Assembly: GCF_000447205.1 (NCBI RefSeq) | Contig: NZ_AUWY01000112.1 | Span: forward strand, 62,001-126,000 | Length of the DNA: 64,000 nt | Source of the DNA: Sphingobium ummariense RL-3 | GTDB lineage: Bacteria > Pseudomonadota > Alphaproteobacteria > Sphingomonadales > Sphingomonadaceae | Reading direction: 5' to 3' | Part shown: piece by piece, positions 39,155 through 47,953 of the stretch | Position numbering within the stretch: position 1 is the stretch's first letter | How the letters are laid out: each line of letters begins with the position of its first letter | Program-made: the position numbers and the translations under genes | Notes under the pieces: model-generated | What the model was told of the DNA's origin: nothing | What the model saw: the letters and a program-made list of their open reading frames with translations, nothing else | Database searches by the model: none

Positions 39155-39167
39155 CGGTCGATCGCTC

Positions 39168-39197
39168 AAAAAAATGGGCCGGCCCGGAGGCCAGCCC
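39168..39197 (-). terminator. Intrinsic terminator of the ftsK-linked sRNA
   Basis: GGGCCGGCC (39176-39184) and GGCCAGCCC (39189-39197) form a 9-bp stem with one G-U pair and a 4-base loop. Seven A residues at 39168-39174 are the U-run on the minus strand. Confidence 0.85.
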
Positions 39198-39306
39198 TTG
39201 ATGAGTTTAGGAGAGGATGCCTGAAAGGCCCGCTCTCTTTGGCGGAGCGCGGCCCAGGCCGCAAATGCGAAGCGTTGCAAAACGATTGCATGTTACGCAA
39301 TCGTCA
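39168..39306 (-). ncRNA. Small RNA downstream of ftsK, paralogue of the one at 46358 (possibly suhB/mmgR family)
   Basis: On the minus strand a 5' hairpin CGATTGC-N7-GCAATCG (39283-39303), a CGCATTTGCGG element (about 39259-39269), a conserved core CTTTCAGGCATCCTCTCCT (complement of 39209-39227) and an intrinsic terminator follow in order. The whole pattern recurs at 46358-46495. Its 5' end lies about 15 bases after the ftsK stop, so it may have a promoter inside ftsK or be cut from the ftsK 3' end. The core CCTCTCCT can pair with ribosome sites. The suhB/mmgR resemblance is from memory. Confidence 0.72.
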
Positions 39307-39321
39307 TGATGAAAGGCTGGC

Positions 39322-41649
39322 TCAGAGCGGATTCCCGTTCTCGTCGCGCAGCACTTCGCGGCGGCCGACATGGTTGGGCGGGCCGACCAGCCCTTCCTCC
39401 TCCATCCGTTCGATGAGCCGCGCGGCCGAATTGTAGCCGACGCGGAGCTGCCGTTGCAGCCAGCTGGTCGAGGCCTTCTGATTCTCGAAGACGAGCTGGC
39501 AGGCCTTGCGGAACAGCTGGGCATCGGGGCTGTCGTCGCCCAGGTCGACGCCGTCGAGCGCAAAGCTGCCGTCCTCTGGTTCCTCTGTGACAGCGGCGAT
39601 ATAGTCGGGCTTGCCCTGCGCACGCCAATGGTCGGCGACCATGCGCACTTCGTCGTCCGAGACGAAGGGACCGTGAACGCGGGTCAACCCCTTGCCGCCG
39701 TGCATGTAGAGCATGTCGCCCTTGCCCAGCAGCTGCTCGGCGCCCTGTTCGCCCAGGATGGTGCGGCTGTCGATCTTCGACGTGACGAAGAAGCTGATGC
39801 GGGTCGGCAGGTTCGCCTTGATGACGCCGGTGATGACGTCGACCGAGGGACGCTGCGTCGCAAGGATGAGGTGGATGCCGGCCGCGCGCGCCTTCTGGGC
39901 GAGGCGCTGGATCAGGAATTCCACCTCCTTGCCCGCGGTCATCATGAGGTCGGCGAGCTCGTCCACCACCACCACGATCTGCGGCAGCGGCTGGAAGTCG
40001 AGCTGCTCCTCCTCGTAGATCGGCTTGCCGGTTTCCGGGTCGTAGCCGGTCTGGACGCGGCGGCCGAGCGGCTTGCCCTTCGCCTTCGCGGCGCGGACCT
40101 TCTCATTATAGTTGGCGAGGTTGCGAACGGAGATCGACGCCATCATGCGATAGCGATCCTCCATCTGCTCGACCGCCCATTTGAGCGCGCGGACGGCCTT
40201 GCTCGGCTCCGTCACCACCGGCGAGAGGAGATGCGGGATGTCGTCATAGGTCGACAGTTCCAGCATCTTGGGGTCGATCATGATGAGGCGCAGCTGGTCC
40301 GGCGTCATGCGGTAGAGCAGCGACAGGATCATCGCGTTGAGGCCCACCGACTTGCCCGACCCAGTGGTGCCCGCGATCAGAAGGTGGGGCATGGGCGCCA
40401 GGTCGGCGATGATCGGTTCGCCCGAGATGTTCTTGCCCAGGATGATCGGCAGGGTCGCTTCCTGGCCGAACTGCTCGGACGTGATGAGCTCGCGGAAGGA
40501 CACGCCTTCGCGATGGGCGTTGGGCAGCTCGATGCCGATGACGGTGCGGCCGGGAATGGTCGCGACGCGCGCCGAGAGCGCCGACATGTTGCGGGCGATG
40601 TCGTCGGCCAGCGCGATCACCCGGCTCGCCTTGATGCCCGGCGCCGGCTCCAGTTCGTACATGGTAACGACCGGGCCGGGGCGGACCTCGACAATATTGC
40701 CCTTCACATGGAAGTCGTCGAGCACGCTTTCCAGCAGGCGGGCGTTGCGCTCCAGTGCGGCCTTGTCGATCTTCGTCCCCTGGTTCGTGGGGATCGGGTT
40801 CAGCAGGTCGGGCGAGGGCAGCGAGCTGTTGCCGAACAGATCGTCCTGGCTGACCGGCGCCATCTGCCGCTGCGCCGGGGCGGGCTTGGGCGCCTGGATG
40901 GTGATGGGCGGCTTGGGTTCGCTCGATACCTGCCTGCGGGGGCCGTTCACGCGTTCGGGAGCCTCACCATCCTCCTCATCCTCCTGCCCGGACGCGGCGG
41001 CACCGGCGAAGGCCAGTCGGGGGCGGGGAAGGCTGAGCCGGGGCAGCGAAGGCCGGCGTAGGGTGAAGATCGGCCTGTCGAGCGCCAGGCTGCGATACCA
41101 GACGAAGAGGCCGGCGATCAGCGCCAGCAGCACGGCGGTGCCGGAAATCCAGCCCTGCGCCGCGCCGGGCGCGCGCGCGACCAGACTGTAGAATCCCTTG
41201 GCGCTGGCGAGGCCCACCATGCCGCCCCAGCCGGACGGCAGGCCGACCAGCGGATCGGGCTGGAACAGGGCGAGCGCGATGCCGATGAAGGCGATGCCCA
41301 GCACGCACTTGCCGAACTGCCCCTTCCACCCCGCCATGTCCTGATCGCCCCAGAGGCGGCGCGCGGTGATCGCCATCAGCGGCAGCAGAAGGGCCACGGG
41401 AACGCCAAGGAGAAGCAGCAGGAAATCGGCGGTCCATGCGCCCGGCGCGCCCATGATGTTGCGCACCCCATCGCCCGCCACGGTCATGAGCGAGGGATCG
41501 CTGGGCGTGTAGCTGAGCAGGGCGAGCGCGAGGAACAGGGTGACGAGCATCAGCGCGATCGCGCTGATCAGCGCACCGCTGCGGATCAGGCTGCGTTTCA
41601 GCATCTCGCGCCATTCCGGCGTGCGCTTGGCTCCACGGCTGACGGCCAT
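39322..41649 (-). CDS. ftsK: DNA translocase FtsK
   Basis: 775 residues from ATG 41649. Four membrane segments lie in the first 190 residues, followed by a Pro-rich linker and the motor: PHLLIAGTTGSGKSVGLNAM (Walker A), IVVVVDELADLMM (Walker B), ILATQRPSVDVITGVIKANL, and a C-terminal gamma winged helix (ASTSWLQRQLRVGYNSAARL, MEEEGLVGPPNHVGRREVL) that reads KOPS. It segregates chromosome termini at the septum. Confidence 0.97.
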   Translation of the reverse strand: MAVSRGAKRTPEWREMLKRSLIRSGALISAIALMLVTLFLALALLSYTPSDPSLMTVAGDGVRNIMGAPGAWTADFLLLLLGVPVALLLPLMAITARRLWGDQDMAGWKGQFGKCVLGIAFIGIALALFQPDPLVGLPSGWGGMVGLASAKGFYSLVARAPGAAQGWISGTAVLLALIAGLFVWYRSLALDRPIFTLRRPSLPRLSLPRPRLAFAGAAASGQEDEEDGEAPERVNGPRRQVSSEPKPPITIQAPKPAPAQRQMAPVSQDDLFGNSSLPSPDLLNPIPTNQGTKIDKAALERNARLLESVLDDFHVKGNIVEVRPGPVVTMYELEPAPGIKASRVIALADDIARNMSALSARVATIPGRTVIGIELPNAHREGVSFRELITSEQFGQEATLPIILGKNISGEPIIADLAPMPHLLIAGTTGSGKSVGLNAMILSLLYRMTPDQLRLIMIDPKMLELSTYDDIPHLLSPVVTEPSKAVRALKWAVEQMEDRYRMMASISVRNLANYNEKVRAAKAKGKPLGRRVQTGYDPETGKPIYEEEQLDFQPLPQIVVVVDELADLMMTAGKEVEFLIQRLAQKARAAGIHLILATQRPSVDVITGVIKANLPTRISFFVTSKIDSRTILGEQGAEQLLGKGDMLYMHGGKGLTRVHGPFVSDDEVRMVADHWRAQGKPDYIAAVTEEPEDGSFALDGVDLGDDSPDAQLFRKACQLVFENQKASTSWLQRQLRVGYNSAARLIERMEEEGLVGPPNHVGRREVLRDENGNPL

Positions 41650-41811
41650 GACGTTCCTTGTCCCCCAAATGTTCCGTTTCGGCACAATGCCCCCGGGGGG
41701 GAGTCCGCGTCAAGAGTCCGCCCGACGAGCCGTTTCGGGCCCGGTCCGTAACATCCCTTATGGCAGGCAGCGCCTCCCTGCCGGCACAAGGGCCGGGAAA
41801 GGAGAGCCACG

Positions 41812-41916
41812 ATGATCGCTCAATATTATCCGTGGATGGTTGCCGTCTGCCTGGGAATCTTCGGCGCCGTCCTGCTGATCGTCAGCATCCAGGACAGCCT
41901 GCACGACCGCAACTAG
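41812..41916 (+). CDS. 34-residue single-span membrane peptide
   Basis: MIAQYYPWMVAVCLGIFG starts a peptide with one membrane segment (about residues 8-26) and a polar tail SIQDSLHDRN. A strong ribosome site AAAGGAGA (41798-41805) stands 6 bases before the ATG, which supports real translation. Its stop TAG overlaps the stop of the convergent GNAT gene by the shared bases CTAG. Function unknown. Confidence 0.6.
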   Translation: MIAQYYPWMVAVCLGIFGAVLLIVSIQDSLHDRN

Positions 41917-42389
41917 GCCGCGAGCGCGCGCAGGGCGTCGCCATCGACGCGCTGCACCGTCCATTCGTCCATAGGCCGGGCTCCGATGGACCGGTAGAAG
42001 GCGATGGACGGCGCGTTCCAGTCCAGCACCCACCATTCGAGGCGCGCGCAGTCGCGATCCAACGCGATCTGCGCCAAGCGGCGGAGCAGCGCCTTGCCCG
42101 CGCCCGAGCCGCGCGCTTCCGGCACCACGAACAGATCCTCCAGATAGAGGCCCGGTCGCCCTTCGAAGGTCGAGAAATTATGGAAGAAGAGGGCAAAGCC
42201 GATCGGTCCCTCCTCTCGTTCAGCAATCAGGACTTCGGCCATGGGGCGTGGGCCGAAGAGATATTTCTCCAAGGTCGCACGGTCGGCCTTCACCTCATGC
42301 GCAAGCTTTTCATAGTCGGCGAGCGCCAGGATGAAGCCGTGGATGGCGGCGATGTCGGCGGGAACCGCCTCGCGGATGATGAGGGTCAT
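41913..42389 (-). CDS. GNAT-family N-acetyltransferase (diamine acetyltransferase-like)
   Basis: 158 residues. Acetyl-CoA loop: VVPEARGSGAGKALLRRLAQ. LYLEDLFV and the C-terminal ARLEWWVLDWNAPSIAFYRSIGA (in part: WWVLDWNAPSIAFYRS) are typical of the spermidine/spermine and thialysine acetyltransferase subgroup. The exact substrate is not known. Its ATG overlaps the stop of the EamA transporter gene upstream. Confidence 0.85.
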   Translation of the reverse strand: MTLIIREAVPADIAAIHGFILALADYEKLAHEVKADRATLEKYLFGPRPMAEVLIAEREEGPIGFALFFHNFSTFEGRPGLYLEDLFVVPEARGSGAGKALLRRLAQIALDRDCARLEWWVLDWNAPSIAFYRSIGARPMDEWTVQRVDGDALRALAA

Positions 42390-43324
42390 AGGGCTCCTGC
42401 TTCGACATGGGGCGGTTCCGCCGGTCGCGCCCGCGCCGCCACCAGGCAGCCGGCGACGATCAGCGCCGCGCCAGCCACTGTGGTCAGCGTCAGTTCTTCG
42501 TCAAATGCCAGCCAGCCCATAATGGCCGCCCAGACGAAGGCGCTGTATTCGACCGGGATCAGGCGCTGCGCCTCTGCCCGGGCATAGGCCCAGGCCAAGG
42601 CGGTGAGCGAGGCGAAGGCAAGAATGGCAGCCAGAGCCACGAGGAGCCAGGCGGAATGGCGGGGAATAACCGGGCGCAGATCGCCGATTCCAGGGATGAG
42701 CGCGACGGTAACGGCGGCCATGGTGAAGACGCCGAGCATCACCAGATGCTGGAAGAAGGCGACCTCCACGGGAGAGGCCATCTGCGCCTGCCGGCGCTGG
42801 AGAATGAGATTCCAGGCGAACAGCACCGCCGAGAGCAGCACGGCCAGAGCGCCCAGCAGCGCATCGATATCATAGGTGCCACGCATCCGGCCCGACAGGA
42901 TGATGGCGACGCCGATCAAACCGAGGAGCGATGCGCCGATCGCCTGCCGCCCGACCTTTTCCCCGAGCAGCAACGCGGCGAGGTAGAGCGCGATCAGCGG
43001 CGCGATGAAGGACAGCGCGATCGCCTCCGCCAGCGGCAGGCGCATGATCGCCCAGAAGAAGAGGCTCGCCATCGCCGCGACGACCAGGCCGCGCAACAGA
43101 TGGAGGCGAAACACTGCAAGGGTCGGCCAGCGCTGGCGGAGGGCCAGCATCAGCGCAAGCCCCAGCAGCGATCCGACCACGGCGCGCCAGAACAGCGCGT
43201 TGAAGAGACCGATGGAGAGGCTGAGACCCTTCATCGCCGCGTCCATGACGGAGAACAGTGCCACGCCGAGGCAGCAGACGGCGAAGGGAAGCGCGAAATA
43301 AGCGCGGGAGGTTTCGGGTAGCAT
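42386..43324 (-). CDS. EamA/RhaT-family (DMT) transporter
   Basis: 312 residues with about ten membrane segments and two EamA repeats (first ending LPLAEAIALSFIAPLIALYLAALLLGE, in part: LPLAEAIALSFIAPLIAL; second with LIPVEYSAFVWAAIMGWLAF). Inner-membrane metabolite exporter of unknown substrate. It is coupled to the GNAT gene by an ATGA overlap. Confidence 0.88.
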   Translation of the reverse strand: MLPETSRAYFALPFAVCCLGVALFSVMDAAMKGLSLSIGLFNALFWRAVVGSLLGLALMLALRQRWPTLAVFRLHLLRGLVVAAMASLFFWAIMRLPLAEAIALSFIAPLIALYLAALLLGEKVGRQAIGASLLGLIGVAIILSGRMRGTYDIDALLGALAVLLSAVLFAWNLILQRRQAQMASPVEVAFFQHLVMLGVFTMAAVTVALIPGIGDLRPVIPRHSAWLLVALAAILAFASLTALAWAYARAEAQRLIPVEYSAFVWAAIMGWLAFDEELTLTTVAGAALIVAGCLVAARARPAEPPHVEAGAL

Positions 43325-43365
43325 GCCCCTCTCTTAGCGCAGAGGAGGGATTGAGGCCGGGACCA

Positions 43366-43635
43366 TCATCCGTCGATCTTCGCCCCGGTCATGCGACCGA
43401 TCACCAGCTCTCCGATCTCCAGCCGGGCGACGCGCGCGGTGCCGATACGCAGGCGGCCGATCGCCAAGGCGCCAATCGCGAGCGCACCGAGGGCAAGCGC
43501 GCCGAGGGCCATGGCACCCATAGCGCCAGCACCGAGGGCCGATGCTCCCGTCGCCTTTACGCCCGTGGCCTTCGCTGCCTGGAGGTCGGTGCCAAGGCGG
43601 CTATCGCCAGCTACCTTGTCCTGCGTCTCCGTCAT
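43366..43635 (-). CDS. Gly/Ala-repeat protein coupled to ispG
   Basis: 89 residues. After a polar N-terminus it is built of short repeats with Gly every five residues: [21 protein letters not shown] and then [28 protein letters not shown] (shown as [19 protein letters not shown]). The regular x-I/A-G-x-L pattern suggests a small solenoid or beta-helix, much like pentapeptide-type repeats. The ATG overlaps the ispG stop (ATGA). Function unknown. Confidence 0.7.
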
Positions 43636-44792
43636 TCCGCCGCCTCGGCCTGCCCGGCGTCGGTCGACTCCGCTTCCAGCTTCGCCGCCTCGATCTCCGC
43701 CGCCTTGGCTTCGACGAGAGCGACGATATGGTCGATCATCCCTTCATCCTGGACGGTGTGGTCGGTGAGGCCGGAAAGATAGACCATGTGCTTGCCCGCG
43801 CCGCCGCCGGTCAGGCCGATGTCGGTCTCGCGCGCTTCGCCCGGGCCGTTGACGACGCAGCCGAGCACCGAGAGCGACAGGGGCGTGTGGATATGCTGGA
43901 GCCGCTGTTCCAGCGCCTGAACGGTGCGGATGACGTCGAAGCCCTGGCGCGCGCAGCTGGGGCAGGAGATGACCTTGACCCCGCGGGTGCGGATGCCCAG
44001 CGACTTCAGGATCTCGTAGCCGACCCGCACTTCCTCTTCCGGTTCGGCGGAGAGAGAGACGCGGATGGTGTCGCCGATGCCGGCCCAGAGCAGGTTGCCG
44101 ATGCCGATCGCGCTCTTGACCGTACCGCCGATCAGGCCGCCCGCCTCGGTGATGCCGAGGTGGAGCGGACAGTCGACCGCTTCGGCGAGCTGCATATAGG
44201 CGGCGACCGCGAGGAACACGTCGCTGGCCTTCACCGCGACCTTATATTCGTGGAAATCCTGGTCCTGGAGCAGCTTGATATGGTCGAGCGCGCTCTCGAC
44301 CAGCGCTTCGGGACAAGGCTCGCCATATTTTTCGAGCAGATCCTTTTCCAGGCTGCCAGCATTCACGCCGATGCGGATCGAGCAGCCGTTCGCCTTGGCC
44401 GCGTCCACCACTTCCTTGACGCGCGCCTCGCTGCCGATGTTGCCGGGGTTGATGCGCAGGCAGGCCGCGCCCGCATCGGCGGCTTCGAGCGCGCGCTTAT
44501 AGTGGAAATGGATGTCGGCGACGATCGGCACGCGGGCGGCGCGGACGATCTGCTTCAGGGCCGCGGTCGATTCCTCGTCGGGACAGGAGACGCGGATGAT
44601 GTCCACGCCCACCTCCTCGCAGCGGCGGATCTGGTCGATCGTCGCACGCACATCATGAGTCGGCGTGTTGGTCATGGTCTGCACCGTGACGGGCGCGCCG
44701 CCGCCGACGGGGACGTTGCCGACCATGATCTGGCGGCTCTGGCGGCGGGCGATGTCCCGCCAGGGACGCAGGCCGGGATTGTGATCGGACAT
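43632..44792 (-). CDS. ispG: (E)-4-hydroxy-3-methylbut-2-enyl-diphosphate synthase
   Basis: 386 residues. The [4Fe-4S] enzyme of the MEP isoprenoid pathway. [27 protein letters not shown] opens the TIM barrel (in part: [10 protein letters not shown]). The cluster cysteines are in [12 protein letters not shown] and [13 protein letters not shown]. The ATG follows immediately after a terminator hairpin, and its best ribosome site (GGAG) lies inside that hairpin. Confidence 0.97.
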
Positions 44793-44793
44793 G

Positions 44794-44822
44794 AAAAGGG
44801 GCTCCGTTGGCTACGGAGCCCC
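44794..44822 (-). terminator. Intrinsic terminator of the FadL-type gene, abutting ispG
   Basis: GGGGCTCCGT (44798-44807) and ACGGAGCCCC (44813-44822) form a perfect 10-bp stem with a 5-base loop; AAAA at 44794-44797 is a short U-run on the minus strand. It stands in the 52-bp gap between the porin stop and the ispG start. Confidence 0.75.
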
Positions 44823-44844
44823 CTATAGTCCTTCCCGCGTCCGG

Positions 44845-46146
44845 TTAGAAGCGCGCGGTGAAGGATGCGGCGACCTGGTCCGCATTGCCGGTGGTCAGGG
44901 CACGGGTCGTCGCCGTGACGGTCGCGGGCGCCGGGAAATAGCTGTCCGGGCGGATGATGTTGGCCTTTTCCACGAAGGTGTGGGCGTAGGACAGGTTGAG
45001 CGCGAACGCCGGCGAGATGTTCCAGGTCGCGCCGCCCGACAGCCAGACGCGGTCGCCGTCCGGCACCCGGGTGGTGAGCAGCTGGTTGTTGGTCGGCGTG
45101 CGGTCGAACATCGTGCCGGCGCGCACGGTCAGGGCCGGGCTGACATCATATTCGGCGCCGGCGCTGAAGCTGTAGCTATCATGATAGTCCAGCTCCTTGA
45201 TCGACGGGGAGCCGACCTCCGGCGTGATCGCGATCGCCTTGAACTTCGACCAGTTGTACCAACGCCCGGTCAGCATCGCGCGCAGCTTGGGCGTCAGGCT
45301 GTGGGTCATGCTGACGGTGACGATGTCGGGGAGGTCGAGCGGCGCGGTCGCGTCCACGGAGCCGTTGGCTGCAGCCAGTGGACCAGCGAGGCCCGAGATG
45401 GTCTGCGTGCCCGTCAGGTGGTGCTTGATGCCGGACCGATAGTGAACGCCGAAATGCGTGTCGCCGGTGGTGTAGAAGATGCCCGCGTTCCAGCCGACCG
45501 ACCAGTCGTCGCCCTCCACCTTTGCATGGCCGTCCGCCAACAGCGGGGACAGCTGCGGCAGGGCGTTGGTCAGCGTCACCTTCACATATTGAACGTCGAC
45601 GCCGCCGCCGATCGAGAGATTGTCGGTGACGCGGTAGGCAGCCGACGGCTGGATATTGTAGGTCTTGAGGTCGGTATAGAGCGAGTCGTAACGGCCGAAG
45701 AAATCGTCGTCATATTCGAGCTTCAGGCCGAAGGGCGCGTTGACTCCCAGGCCCAGCCAGAGCCGGTCGGTGATCTGCGCGCTGACATAGCCGCTGGGAA
45801 TGGGAATGACGCTTTCGAACGGCTGGCCGCCATCGCCTCCCGAAACAGGCACCTGAACGGGAAGGCCCGGCACGGTGCGGGTGGTGCCGCGATTGGACTG
45901 GTGCGCGAACGCCATGAGTGCAACGCCACCGACCGATGTCTGGATGCCCGGAAGTTCCGTCATCGCCGCGGGATTGAAGTAGATCGTTGACGGGTCGTCT
46001 GCTGCAGCGGCGCCACCGGACAGCGCGCGGCCAGTTTCCTTGGGCGACTGTTCCTGCAGGTAGAAGCCGCCCGCGAGGGCAGGGAACGGCGCTGCGAGCG
46101 CGGCGGAAAAGGTCAGACTGGCAAGAAGGCGACGACGAAGGGGCAT
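44845..46146 (-). CDS. FadL/OmpP1-family outer-membrane transport protein
   Basis: 433 residues with a signal peptide (ending AAPFPALAGG). FYLQEQSPKETGRALSGGAAAADDPSTIYFNPAAM (in part: DDPSTIYFNPAAMTELPG) is the FadL N-terminal hatch with the NPA motif. The body is a 14-strand barrel ending in a Phe (ASFTARF). Takes up long-chain fatty acids or other hydrophobic compounds. Its leader has an AGAGGATC ribosome site, partly complementary to the sRNA core found just upstream. Confidence 0.92.
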   Translation of the reverse strand: MPLRRRLLASLTFSAALAAPFPALAGGFYLQEQSPKETGRALSGGAAAADDPSTIYFNPAAMTELPGIQTSVGGVALMAFAHQSNRGTTRTVPGLPVQVPVSGGDGGQPFESVIPIPSGYVSAQITDRLWLGLGVNAPFGLKLEYDDDFFGRYDSLYTDLKTYNIQPSAAYRVTDNLSIGGGVDVQYVKVTLTNALPQLSPLLADGHAKVEGDDWSVGWNAGIFYTTGDTHFGVHYRSGIKHHLTGTQTISGLAGPLAAANGSVDATAPLDLPDIVTVSMTHSLTPKLRAMLTGRWYNWSKFKAIAITPEVGSPSIKELDYHDSYSFSAGAEYDVSPALTVRAGTMFDRTPTNNQLLTTRVPDGDRVWLSGGATWNISPAFALNLSYAHTFVEKANIIRPDSYFPAPATVTATTRALTTGNADQVAASFTARF

Positions 46147-46357
46147 GGCAGATCCTCTGCTTGTTCTTTTGCTGTTCGGGCCGGAAGGCGCGTACAGAAC
46201 GCGTTATCAGGCCCTTGGAGCCGCGGAACTATGCCCCGACAGGGTTAAAATCCAGTGTTCCGGAAACGCCAAGGCCCGCCCAGGGAGCGCTACACCATGG
46301 TTATCGACCCATGGACGCTACGGCAGGGAAGCCCTGTGCGGATATGCCACAGTTGAC
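46147..46357. other. Leader and promoter region of the FadL-type gene
   Basis: 211 bp between the porin start and the terminator of the upstream sRNA. It must contain the porin promoter on the minus strand. I see no reading frame or clear sigma-70 motif; GCAGATCCTCTGC (46148-46160 or close by) is a small inverted repeat around the ribosome site. Confidence 0.4.
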
Positions 46358-46387
46358 AAAAAAAAGCCGTCCTGGTGGACGGCTTTG
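46358..46387 (-). terminator. Intrinsic terminator of the fadL-linked sRNA
   Basis: AGCCGTCC (46365-46372) and GGACGGCT (46377-46384) form the stem, extended by A-T pairs, with a TGGT loop; eight A residues at 46358-46365 give the U-run on the minus strand. Confidence 0.88.
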
Positions 46388-46495
46388 GAAGTTTTTAGGA
46401 GAGGATGCCTGAAAGGCCCGTTCCTTTTGCGGTGCAGCGTCCCACGCCGCAAATGCGAAACGGACACCCATGATTGCATGAAACGCAATCGTCAC
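46358..46495 (-). ncRNA. Small RNA upstream of fadL, paralogue of the one at 39168 (possibly suhB/mmgR family)
   Basis: Same order of elements as the ftsK-linked sRNA: 5' hairpin GATTGC-N7-GCAATC (46472-46490), CGCATTTGCGG element (about 46448-46458), core CTTTCAGGCATCCTCTCCT (complement of 46397-46415) and an intrinsic terminator. The two copies match almost fully over the core and the element spacing, but differ in the linking bases, which points to conserved RNA structure. It lies about 80 bp after the phosphomannomutase gene. Confidence 0.75.
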
Positions 46496-46573
46496 GGAAT
46501 CGTAAGCTTTCCGTAAGGGAAAATGAAATCAGAAAACTGTTAGCGCTATCATCATTGATGGCCTTCGAGCGGT

Positions 46574-47953
46574 TCAATCGACCGGATCGCCCATCCGAAT
46601 CGCCGAATCAGCAAGGCAGGATTCGATTCGCGCCACCAGCGTCGCAAGCGCCTGAGGGCTGTGCCCCTCGGCCCGCGCCACCAGCATCGCCTGCGTATGG
46701 GAAGCCCGAAGCAACCACCATCCCGCCTCCGTCGTGACGCGTACACCATCCGTCATGTCCACATCCTCACCCGACGCGAGCAGCCTGGCGCGAACCTCTT
46801 CCATCACGGCGAATTTGCGCTGTTCGGGCACAGGAAAGCGCAGTTCCGGGGTGTTGAAGAGATCCGGCAATTCGTCGCGCAAGGCGGTGACGCTGCGGCC
46901 GAGCCGGGTGGCCGCACGGATCAGGCGCACCGCGGCGTAAAGCCCGTCGTCAAAGCCGTAATAATCGTCCGCGAAGAACAGGTGCCCGGTCATCTCGCCG
47001 CCCAGCGGGCTGCCGATCTGCTTCATTCTGGACTTGATGTGGCTGTGTCCAGTCTTCCACATCACCGGGTCTCCTCCCAGCGCGGTGATCCGGTCGAAAA
47101 CCATCCGGCTGGTCTTCACATCGGCCACAATGCTGGCGCCGGGCCGGTCGCGCAGCACCGGCTCGACGAGAATCGCCAGGATCTGATCGCCCCAGAGGAT
47201 GCGCCCCTTCGCGTCGACGACGCCGATCCGGTCGCCATCCCCGTCGAAGGCCACGCCGAAATCGAGCTTCTTGTCCGCGACCACAGCGCGCAGATCGGCA
47301 AGGTTCCGTTCCTCGCTGGGATCGGGATGATGATGGGGAAAATGACCGTCCACATCGGTGAAGAGCAGGTGATGCTCACCCGGCAGCAGCTTCGCGAGCT
47401 CCTCGACCACCGGCCCGGCCGCGCCGTTCCCGGCGTCCCAGGCGATCCGGTAGGCGGCGCCGTCGAAACCCTGCACCAGACGCGCCGCATAGCGGTCGAG
47501 AATGTCGACGCGCTCGACGCGCCCCTGCCCTTCCAGCCAGTCGCCGGTCGCCGCCATCGCGCCAAGGCGCTGGATGTCCTCGCCGAAAAAGGGACTGTGC
47601 TGGTGCACCAGCTTGAAGCCGTTGTGATCGCCGGGATTATGGCTGCCGGTCACCTGAATGCCGCCATCGACCTGCAGCACCGCCTCGGCATAATAGAGCA
47701 TCGGCGTGGGACCAAGGCCGATCCGCAGAACCTGGACGCCGCTTTCCACCAGCCCGGCGACGAGCGCGGATTCGAGCTGCGGAGAACTCAGCCGCCCGTC
47801 ATAGCCGACCGCCACCCCCGCGCCGCCACCCCGGCGGACGATCGTGCCGAAGCTGCGCCCCAGCGCATGGGCGTCCGCCTCTCCCAGGGTCCGGCCGACA
47901 ATGCCGCGCATGTCATATTCGCGCAGAAGGCTGGGATCGAAGCGATGGGCCAT
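46574..47953 (-). CDS. Phosphomannomutase/phosphoglucomutase
   Basis: 459 residues, like AlgC. Ser104 in TGSHNPGDHNG is the phosphoserine; VAFDGDGDRIGVVD is the metal loop and GEMTGHLFFAD the sugar-binding loop. It interconverts hexose 1- and 6-phosphates for exopolysaccharide or LPS sugars. The C-terminal phosphate-binding part (LLRASHTQAMLVARAEG) carries the expected R-x-S-x-T-like loop. Confidence 0.93.
   Translation of the reverse strand: MAHRFDPSLLREYDMRGIVGRTLGEADAHALGRSFGTIVRRGGGAGVAVGYDGRLSSPQLESALVAGLVESGVQVLRIGLGPTPMLYYAEAVLQVDGGIQVTGSHNPGDHNGFKLVHQHSPFFGEDIQRLGAMAATGDWLEGQGRVERVDILDRYAARLVQGFDGAAYRIAWDAGNGAAGPVVEELAKLLPGEHHLLFTDVDGHFPHHHPDPSEERNLADLRAVVADKKLDFGVAFDGDGDRIGVVDAKGRILWGDQILAILVEPVLRDRPGASIVADVKTSRMVFDRITALGGDPVMWKTGHSHIKSRMKQIGSPLGGEMTGHLFFADDYYGFDDGLYAAVRLIRAATRLGRSVTALRDELPDLFNTPELRFPVPEQRKFAVMEEVRARLLASGEDVDMTDGVRVTTEAGWWLLRASHTQAMLVARAEGHSPQALATLVARIESCLADSAIRMGDPVD

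Follow-up and report, generated by a model that had tools for sequence, protein, structure and literature searches.

Within a 64,000-nt stretch of the Sphingobium ummariense RL-3 genome (the window; the whole genome comprises 4.75 Mb on 139 contigs), two genes for small RNAs (sRNAs), here called copies A and B, are located on the minus strand, and both are genuine copies of the known alphaproteobacterial RNA family RF00519 (suhB/MmgR, aR8). An initial annotation, made from the letters of the window, had described each of them as one chain of about 138 bases and had taken the two for a sibling pair; its observation is confirmed and its interpretation is supported in part. The picture that we consider likely is that A and B belong to a genus-level set of aR8 RNAs with a shared promoter, that one element of this promoter (box 2) is shared with hfq, and that one protein would set the dose of both the sRNAs and Hfq. 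The GATTGC dyad (box 1) and the CGCATTTGCG element, which lies inside box 2 at 39259-39271 (A) and 46447-46459 (B), are most likely operator/promoter DNA and not RNA.

When the entire window was scanned with Rfam at curated cut-offs, exactly two matches were obtained, both to RF00519, at 46349-46424 (43.2 bits) and at 39161-39236 (41.1 bits). The gathering score of 41 bits was reached by both over the full length of the model, by copy A with a small margin, which bears out the suhB/mmgR type proposed earlier. All elements of the chain were found at both places on the minus strand, including terminators with U-runs of the predicted seven to eight bases. They are given below with scores for RF00519 and for R1, a covariance model that was built from an alignment of 45 copies, A and B included.

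39168..39229, minus strand: copy A, aR8/suhB sRNA, from the putative +1 at 39229 to the end of the U-run; RF00519 41.1 bits, R1 75.9 bits (copy in training set)
39210..39219, minus strand: copy A, seed CAUCCUCUCC, inside the exact 14-base core CAGGCATCCTCTCC at 39210-39223
39176..39197, minus strand: copy A, terminator stem-loop, then 7 U
39259..39271, minus strand: copy A, box 2 TTCGCATTTGCGG, containing the -35-like hexamer TTGCGG
39236..39241, minus strand: copy A, putative -10 CAAAGA, 17 bases from the -35
39284..39302, strand-neutral: copy A, box 1 dyad GATTGC-N7-GCAATC, centre at about -64 from the putative start
46358..46417, minus strand: copy B, aR8/suhB sRNA, from the putative +1 at 46417 to the end of the U-run; RF00519 43.2 bits, R1 77.0 bits (copy in training set)
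46398..46407, minus strand: copy B, seed CAUCCUCUCC, inside the exact 14-base core at 46398-46411
46364..46385, minus strand: copy B, terminator stem-loop, then 8 U
46447..46459, minus strand: copy B, box 2 TTCGCATTTGCGG, containing the -35-like hexamer TTGCGG
46424..46429, minus strand: copy B, putative -10 CAAAAG (CAAAAG in 29 of 38 B rows of the promoter alignment, window included)
46472..46490, strand-neutral: copy B, box 1 dyad GATTGC-N7-GCAATC

The likely length of the RNA is about 60 nt, and its parts are a 5' hairpin, the core CAUCCUCUCC and a covarying terminator; the longer core segment CTTTCAGGCATCCTCTCC begins at 39227 (A) and 46415 (B). Its start was placed at the G of GCCUUUC (the G of GCCUUUCAGGC) with the help of TTGCGG-N17-CAAAGA and of SuhB from Sphingopyxis granuli TFA, and the resulting length agrees with the 61 nt given for the latter (PMC6563040). 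Among the 45 aligned copies, 97.2% of the cells in the terminator stem are paired and six of the nine pairs have undergone double changes, as the initial annotation had gathered from two stems that differ in bases and keep their pairing. The covariation score amounts to 0.365 versus 0.188 after shuffling, and 0 of 500 shuffles scored as high. Weaker measures were the count of doubly changed pairs, which 48 of 500 shuffles reached, and the count of pair types, which 6 of 500 reached; all measures dropped when the pairing partner was slid. The 5' hairpin GCCU-UUC-AGGC is invariant in the aligned copies and therefore yields no covariation evidence. Identity of the core within this alignment exists by construction because the copies were chosen by their core, and yet it is more than a selection effect since all 29 genus loci taken by best Rfam score hold CAGGCATCCTCTCC.

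The assumption of a sibling pair had to be abandoned, because the identical 14-base core CAGGCATCCTCTCC occurs six times in the genome, in all six best copies, two of which are of a plasmid-borne type. With RF00519, five matches in the genome exceed the cut-off, a sixth has 39.6 bits and two more have 35.1 and 33.4 bits. These last two (L007 574-654 and L008 1501-1580) carry another core, the strand complement of AGGTTCAGGGAGG, and are possibly other RNAs directed against ribosome sites. A survey of 61 Sphingobium genomes (E <= 0.001, weak matches counted too) recovered the family in every one of them, with 2-11 matches each and a median of 7. It is also present in 137 of 147 genomes in a survey of the order, where the 145 genomes outside Sphingobium have a median of 1 and a maximum of 5 matches (1-3 in 130 genomes, none in 10); the order survey scored fewer first-look candidates per genome than the genus survey, and the overlapping genomes G000 and G028 gave equal counts (8 and 3). 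The aR8 family is thus unusually multiplied in Sphingobium. With a 9-pair terminator stem and 7-8 U at the 3' end and a weak hairpin (GCCU-UUC-AGGC) directly before the single-stranded, C/U-rich CAUCCUCUCC, A and B have the general traits of RF00519. Since the core 10-mer exactly as in Caulobacter (UUUCCUCCCU) and the neighbourhood of an N-formylglutamate amidohydrolase gene are both absent from A and B (whose neighbours are ftsK, pgmG and fadL), the copies are filed as a sphingomonad subclass of RF00519 and not as SisA-type.

The region in front of the RNA was analyzed in a promoter alignment of 70 A/B rows (32 A and 38 B; 68 from relatives plus both window copies). Box 1, TTGC-N7-GCAA, was found in all 70 rows, and its distance from box 2 proved constant even though the search had left this distance free. 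Box 2 starts 48 bases before the core, the positions CGCA.TTG being invariant in 70 of 70 rows and the full 12-mer TTCGCA.TTGCG being exact at its fixed place in 34 of the 38 B rows; the 48-base distance is kept exactly in four of the six genomic copies. The complete dyad GATTGC-N7-GCAATC has only two sites genome-wide, upstream of A and B. The right half of box 2 is usable as a -35 element (TTGCGR), followed by 17 bases and a CATA-like hexamer. Promoters activated by LysR-type regulators have a T-N11-A dyad centred near -65 and a second site near -35, and this geometry fits 70 of 70 rows, with a centre near -64, if the putative start is right.

Had the whole chain of about 138 nt been one RNA, as first annotated, the GATTGC hairpin and the CGCATTTGCG element would be RNA structures, and indeed the dyads are capable of folding into hairpins and conservation extends over the chain as one block. 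We nevertheless regard this as very improbable. The spacing is rigid in all 70 rows, TTGCGR-N17-CATA fits a promoter, SuhB of strain TFA has 61 nt (PMC6563040), and at hfq box 2 is seen again at a different promoter position. Moreover, the flanking pair of box 1 is close to independence (AT 46, GT 15, AC 5 and GC 4 rows), whereas the terminator of the same family covaries; on the other side of the balance, no other pair in box 1 varies, which makes this a slender test of RNA pairing. Because the distance to the core is identical throughout, the one varying pair of the dyad shows no RNA-like covariation and box 2 occurs elsewhere within the hfq promoter, we read the upstream half of the chain as DNA that behaves like a promoter, and with the dyad and the CGCATTTGCG element as probable promoter DNA the RNA probably shrinks from 138 to about 60 nt.

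A genome-wide view of box 2 led to hfq, which was identified in this genome by Pfam PF17209. The sequence TTCGCANTTGCG has six genomic sites, namely four aR8 copies, one about 110 bases before hfq and one within a reading frame; extended by a purine (TTCGCANTTGCGR), it is left with five sites in 4.75 Mb, the four aR8 copies and hfq. Allowing one mismatch gave 69 rows compared with 30 for the reversed pattern; many single-mismatch rows are likely due to chance, and a regulator gene with its own box 2 was not found in this search, the rows of which were not sorted gene by gene. An exact box 2 that also keeps the exact spacing to the core is present in 41 of 199 genomes and 24 of 96 genera of the family, with 0 hits for the reversed-pattern control. 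Of 24 Sphingobium hfq loci (25 genomes queried), 23 carry an exact copy of the 12-mer in front of the gene, and all 24 carry it with at most one mismatch. It sits between a likely -35 (TGGACG) and a TAGGAT-like -10, and adjoining columns vary more; other short stretches of the hfq leader are conserved as well. A shared promoter or a link to hfq was not found for these RNAs in the titles and abstracts retrieved by searches of open-licence papers.

Box 2 might simply be an unusual -35 element that is kept for strong transcription, and the hfq match a conserved coincidence without a shared regulator. TTGCGR does stand at -35 distance from the -10, and SisA of Caulobacter is described as nearly constitutive (PMC12559287). 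We consider this explanation unlikely, given that the conserved block extends upstream of the hexamer into a full palindrome, that in 23 of 24 loci the palindrome is placed between the likely -35 and -10 of hfq and not at its -35, and that box 1 forms a dyad of its own with constant spacing.

Several observations weigh against a common promoter and a common regulator. The full 12-mer is exact in only 14 of 32 A rows and in 9 of 29 genus RF00519 loci taken by score, where the aligned loci show near variants in the corresponding position; box 2 is degenerate in both plasmid-type copies, and the exact box-plus-core pattern is absent in 158 of 199 family genomes. Outside the genus, among the best-scoring 29 of 57 genomes with an hfq match, the hfq box is exact in 0 of 29 loci and has at most one mismatch in 1 of 29. 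The notion that hfq is an ancient member of the box-2 set is therefore unsupported; exact in 23 of 24 loci inside and 0 of 29 outside, the hfq box is tied to the genus where the sRNAs expanded. At hfq, box 2 is located elsewhere relative to the -10 and is not accompanied by box 1, so that the protein or its effect could differ there. On the side of the RNA, the full complement of the core, AGGAGAGGATG, is absent from convincing start codons in the genome, and it is from their sequence that we infer transcription of the copies.

Weighing these points, we still favour a common switch for the sRNA set and Hfq, which could operate as follows. Each RNA of about 60 nt, with its weak 5' hairpin, single-stranded CAUCCUCUCC seed and Rho-independent terminator, would use the seed together with Hfq to pair with G/A-rich ribosome-binding sites and thereby lower translation, by analogy with SuhB at thnR and with SisA. 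A, B and at least two more siblings would be expressed in concert from promoters of the same design, in which box 1 is centred near -64 and the palindrome of box 2 covers the -35, with 17 bases separating the latter from a -10 that resembles CATA or CAAAAG. The Sphingobium hfq promoter would have acquired box 2 between its likely -35 and -10. Because box 2 is also placed in the hfq promoter, a single DNA-binding protein may set the dose of the sRNA set and that of the chaperone. In this scheme, the start site is putative, the dependence on Hfq is predicted, and the same protein would have to read box 2 at both places.

The origin of the set may be reflected by copy C, which is found on contig C110 upstream of a gene for a CDC48-type AAA ATPase. 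As 18 of 20 fetched family loci with exact box 2 adjoin a relative of this gene, the place beside it seems to be the ancestral one, with A, B and the copy on contig C72 as apparent later additions. In all 16 loci that served to train a matrix, box 1 was recognizable (0-3 mismatches), and its distance from box 2 was 14 bases in each. Loci from other genera of the family that were inspected by eye have, on the opposite flank, a CoA-transferase gene transcribed outward; two of these genes were confirmed as PF01144. In loci L152 (628-1398) and L155 (543-1316, both on the RNA strand), aR8 apparently lies between a divergent CoA-transferase gene (PF01144) and the AAA ATPase gene. A link of this neighbourhood to ketone-body or polyhydroxybutyrate (PHB) metabolism is possible.

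A GcvA-like LysR gene (202.4 bits versus the NCBIfam GcvA cut-off of 288) is transcribed divergently from copy C, and the regulator that it encodes is a candidate for the protein that binds box 1, a proposal more speculative than the rest of our reading. It would activate all siblings, and the sRNAs would in turn repress its mRNA in a feedback. We rate this possibility as somewhat less than even. A T-N11-A dyad near -64 is the classic LysR layout; the LysR gene and copy C point away from each other in this genome as well as in relatives, and a single match per genome was present in 28 of 30 selected genomes (20 with boxes, 10 Sphingobium). Where the gene is not linked to aR8, 8 of 13 leaders of the gene contain a box-1-like site (shuffle p <= 0.05). 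Of the 10 aligned genus loci in which it is linked, nine have the core-complementary stretch AGGATGCTTG in its leader and five the longer form GGAGAGGATGCTTG, and it is these core complements that make a feedback loop possible. Against this stand the five of 13 unlinked leaders without a box-1-like site and the two genomes without a LysR match at the cut-off, of which G152 has the boxes and G042 has aR8. Furthermore, adjacency predicts the local promoter only, and the leader sites come from related, non-independent sequences. Two more stretches around copy C may be recorded here. About 120 bases before its core (L001 1393-1406), a core-like AAGCATCCTCTCCT without terminator occurs, the opposite strand of which is the LysR leader; AAGCATCCT is conserved in 9 of 10 aligned loci. 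Directly before the copy C hairpin (L001 1501-1508), AGGAGAGG is complementary to the RNA's own seed CCUCUCCU.

Genes around A and B are as follows.

39322..41685, minus strand: ftsK, in front of copy A (FtsK_SpoIIIE, FtsK_alpha, FtsK_gamma, FtsK_4TM)
46574..47953, minus strand: pgmG, in front of copy B (NF046027, 747.6 bits versus cut-off 600)
44845..46146, minus strand: gene for a fadL-type outer membrane transporter, downstream of copy B (PF03349); candidate target, AGAGGAU near the start codon

The positions of A and B are conserved in many Sphingobium species: among 80 ftsK-anchored loci from named relatives, B is present in 37 and A in 31, and A never occurs without B. Some of these loci are short contigs, so absence of A or B from any one of them stays unproven. 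The covariance model of the 45 RNAs detected no further copies in the 80 loci (E <= 1). A further dyad, TTTCCCTTACGGAAA, is present upstream of copy B at 46508-46522; allowing up to two mismatches, 34 of 38 B rows have it, against 0 of 32 A rows.

The initial annotation was right in proposing an action of the C/U-rich core on ribosome sites, with which it could pair. Eight genes near the pair were inspected for AGAGGAT near the start, which was found for fadL in 28 of 38 B-bearing sequences, for pgmG in 4 of 37, for ftsK in 1 of 80 and for the other five in none. By the same measure a GNAT gene scored 9 of 32 through another part of the RNA (GCCTGAAA); for this reason, and since the orthologues are related, fadL is a lead only. 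Start regions of pgmG with at least seven matching bases occur in 6 of 37 sequences. In the relatives L033 and L037, the pgmG ribosome site is GGAGAGGATG, which is almost fully complementary to the aR8 core. The exact complement AGGAGAGGATG has 13 genomic sites, i.e., five aR8 copies, one LysR leader and seven others. The idea that the core also reads AUG was dropped, as those seven are not at convincing start codons.

Two of the six copies in the genome, on contigs C134 and C108, are of a type found on plasmids. The C134 copy has matches in 46 plasmid records (E <= 1e-3), including 17 at >=99%, and the C108 copy in 58 (E <= 1e-2), of which 16 extend over >=80% of the query; the rest are partial, some with little beyond the core. 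All matches are in sphingomonad genera, 28 of the 58 C108 records are typed as conjugative, and some records are very large replicons. Under the C108 match, 54 of the 58 records have no annotated gene, three are unannotated and one has a SprT-like gene, the plasmid gene table being incomplete. The C134 type as carried by pISP3 and 6pYBL2-6 stands behind a recombinase gene and a hypothetical gene, and a gene for a Tn3-family transposase is about 2 kb off. In both genomic copies (L004 for C134 and L006 for C108, core near 1513 on the RNA strand), an unusual sequence stands right before the hairpin (GAGGATGCCTTTCAGGCATCCTC in L004); it would pair with the seed if the start were a few bases earlier. 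A fuller scheme can be imagined, in which one protein reads TTCGCANTTGCGR at the siblings and at hfq, LysR acts on box 1 and, being itself a target, closes the loop, and the plasmid copies add seed RNA; taken as a whole, we find it doubtful.

aR8 RNAs are widespread in Alphaproteobacteria. Sibling sRNAs that are dispersed and co-regulated are familiar from the Qrr RNAs of Vibrio, which belong to another RNA family and have another regulator than aR8. It is in dispersal and co-regulation that the likeness to Qrr lies (PMC12559287). Why several seemingly equivalent siblings are kept is, according to a 2025 report on Caulobacter, not understood in all cases (PMC12559287). MmgR of Sinorhizobium meliloti, the first characterised aR8 member, which gives RF00519 its Rfam name and affects PHB accumulation, differs from the Sphingobium set in being the sole copy there (PMC12559287). 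SuhB of Sphingopyxis granuli TFA, a sphingomonad suhB RNA like ours when compared by description and not by sequence, blocks translation of thnR in an Hfq-dependent manner, is high at high growth rate and silences a pollutant-degradation pathway; the section of the review that we drew on describes it as one sRNA and mentions no shared box, multicopy set or hfq link (PMC6563040). In view of this pathway, a shared switch would bear on catabolite repression.

The closest counterpart is provided by SisA-D of Caulobacter crescentus, aR8 siblings that are described as present in several copies, each with a weak hairpin, a single-stranded anti-ribosome-site core and a terminator, SisA acting by pairing of the core with ribosome sites on Hfq (PMC12559287). 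The Sphingobium RNAs resemble them by description in RNA family, multiple copies and layout, and differ in the core, which is UUUCCUCCCU there and CAUCCUCUCC here. The Caulobacter siblings are reported to have no common promoter motif and to differ in expression (PMC12559287), whereas four of the Sphingobium copies, A and B among them, have box 2 at the same distance from the core. Because the Caulobacter promoters are described as unrelated, a switch shared by sRNAs and chaperone would be a new arrangement, and if one regulator controls both, the doses of sRNA and Hfq would be matched by design. Sphingobium thus offers a testable contrast to Caulobacter, with the same promoter kept on several copies and one of its boxes also at hfq.

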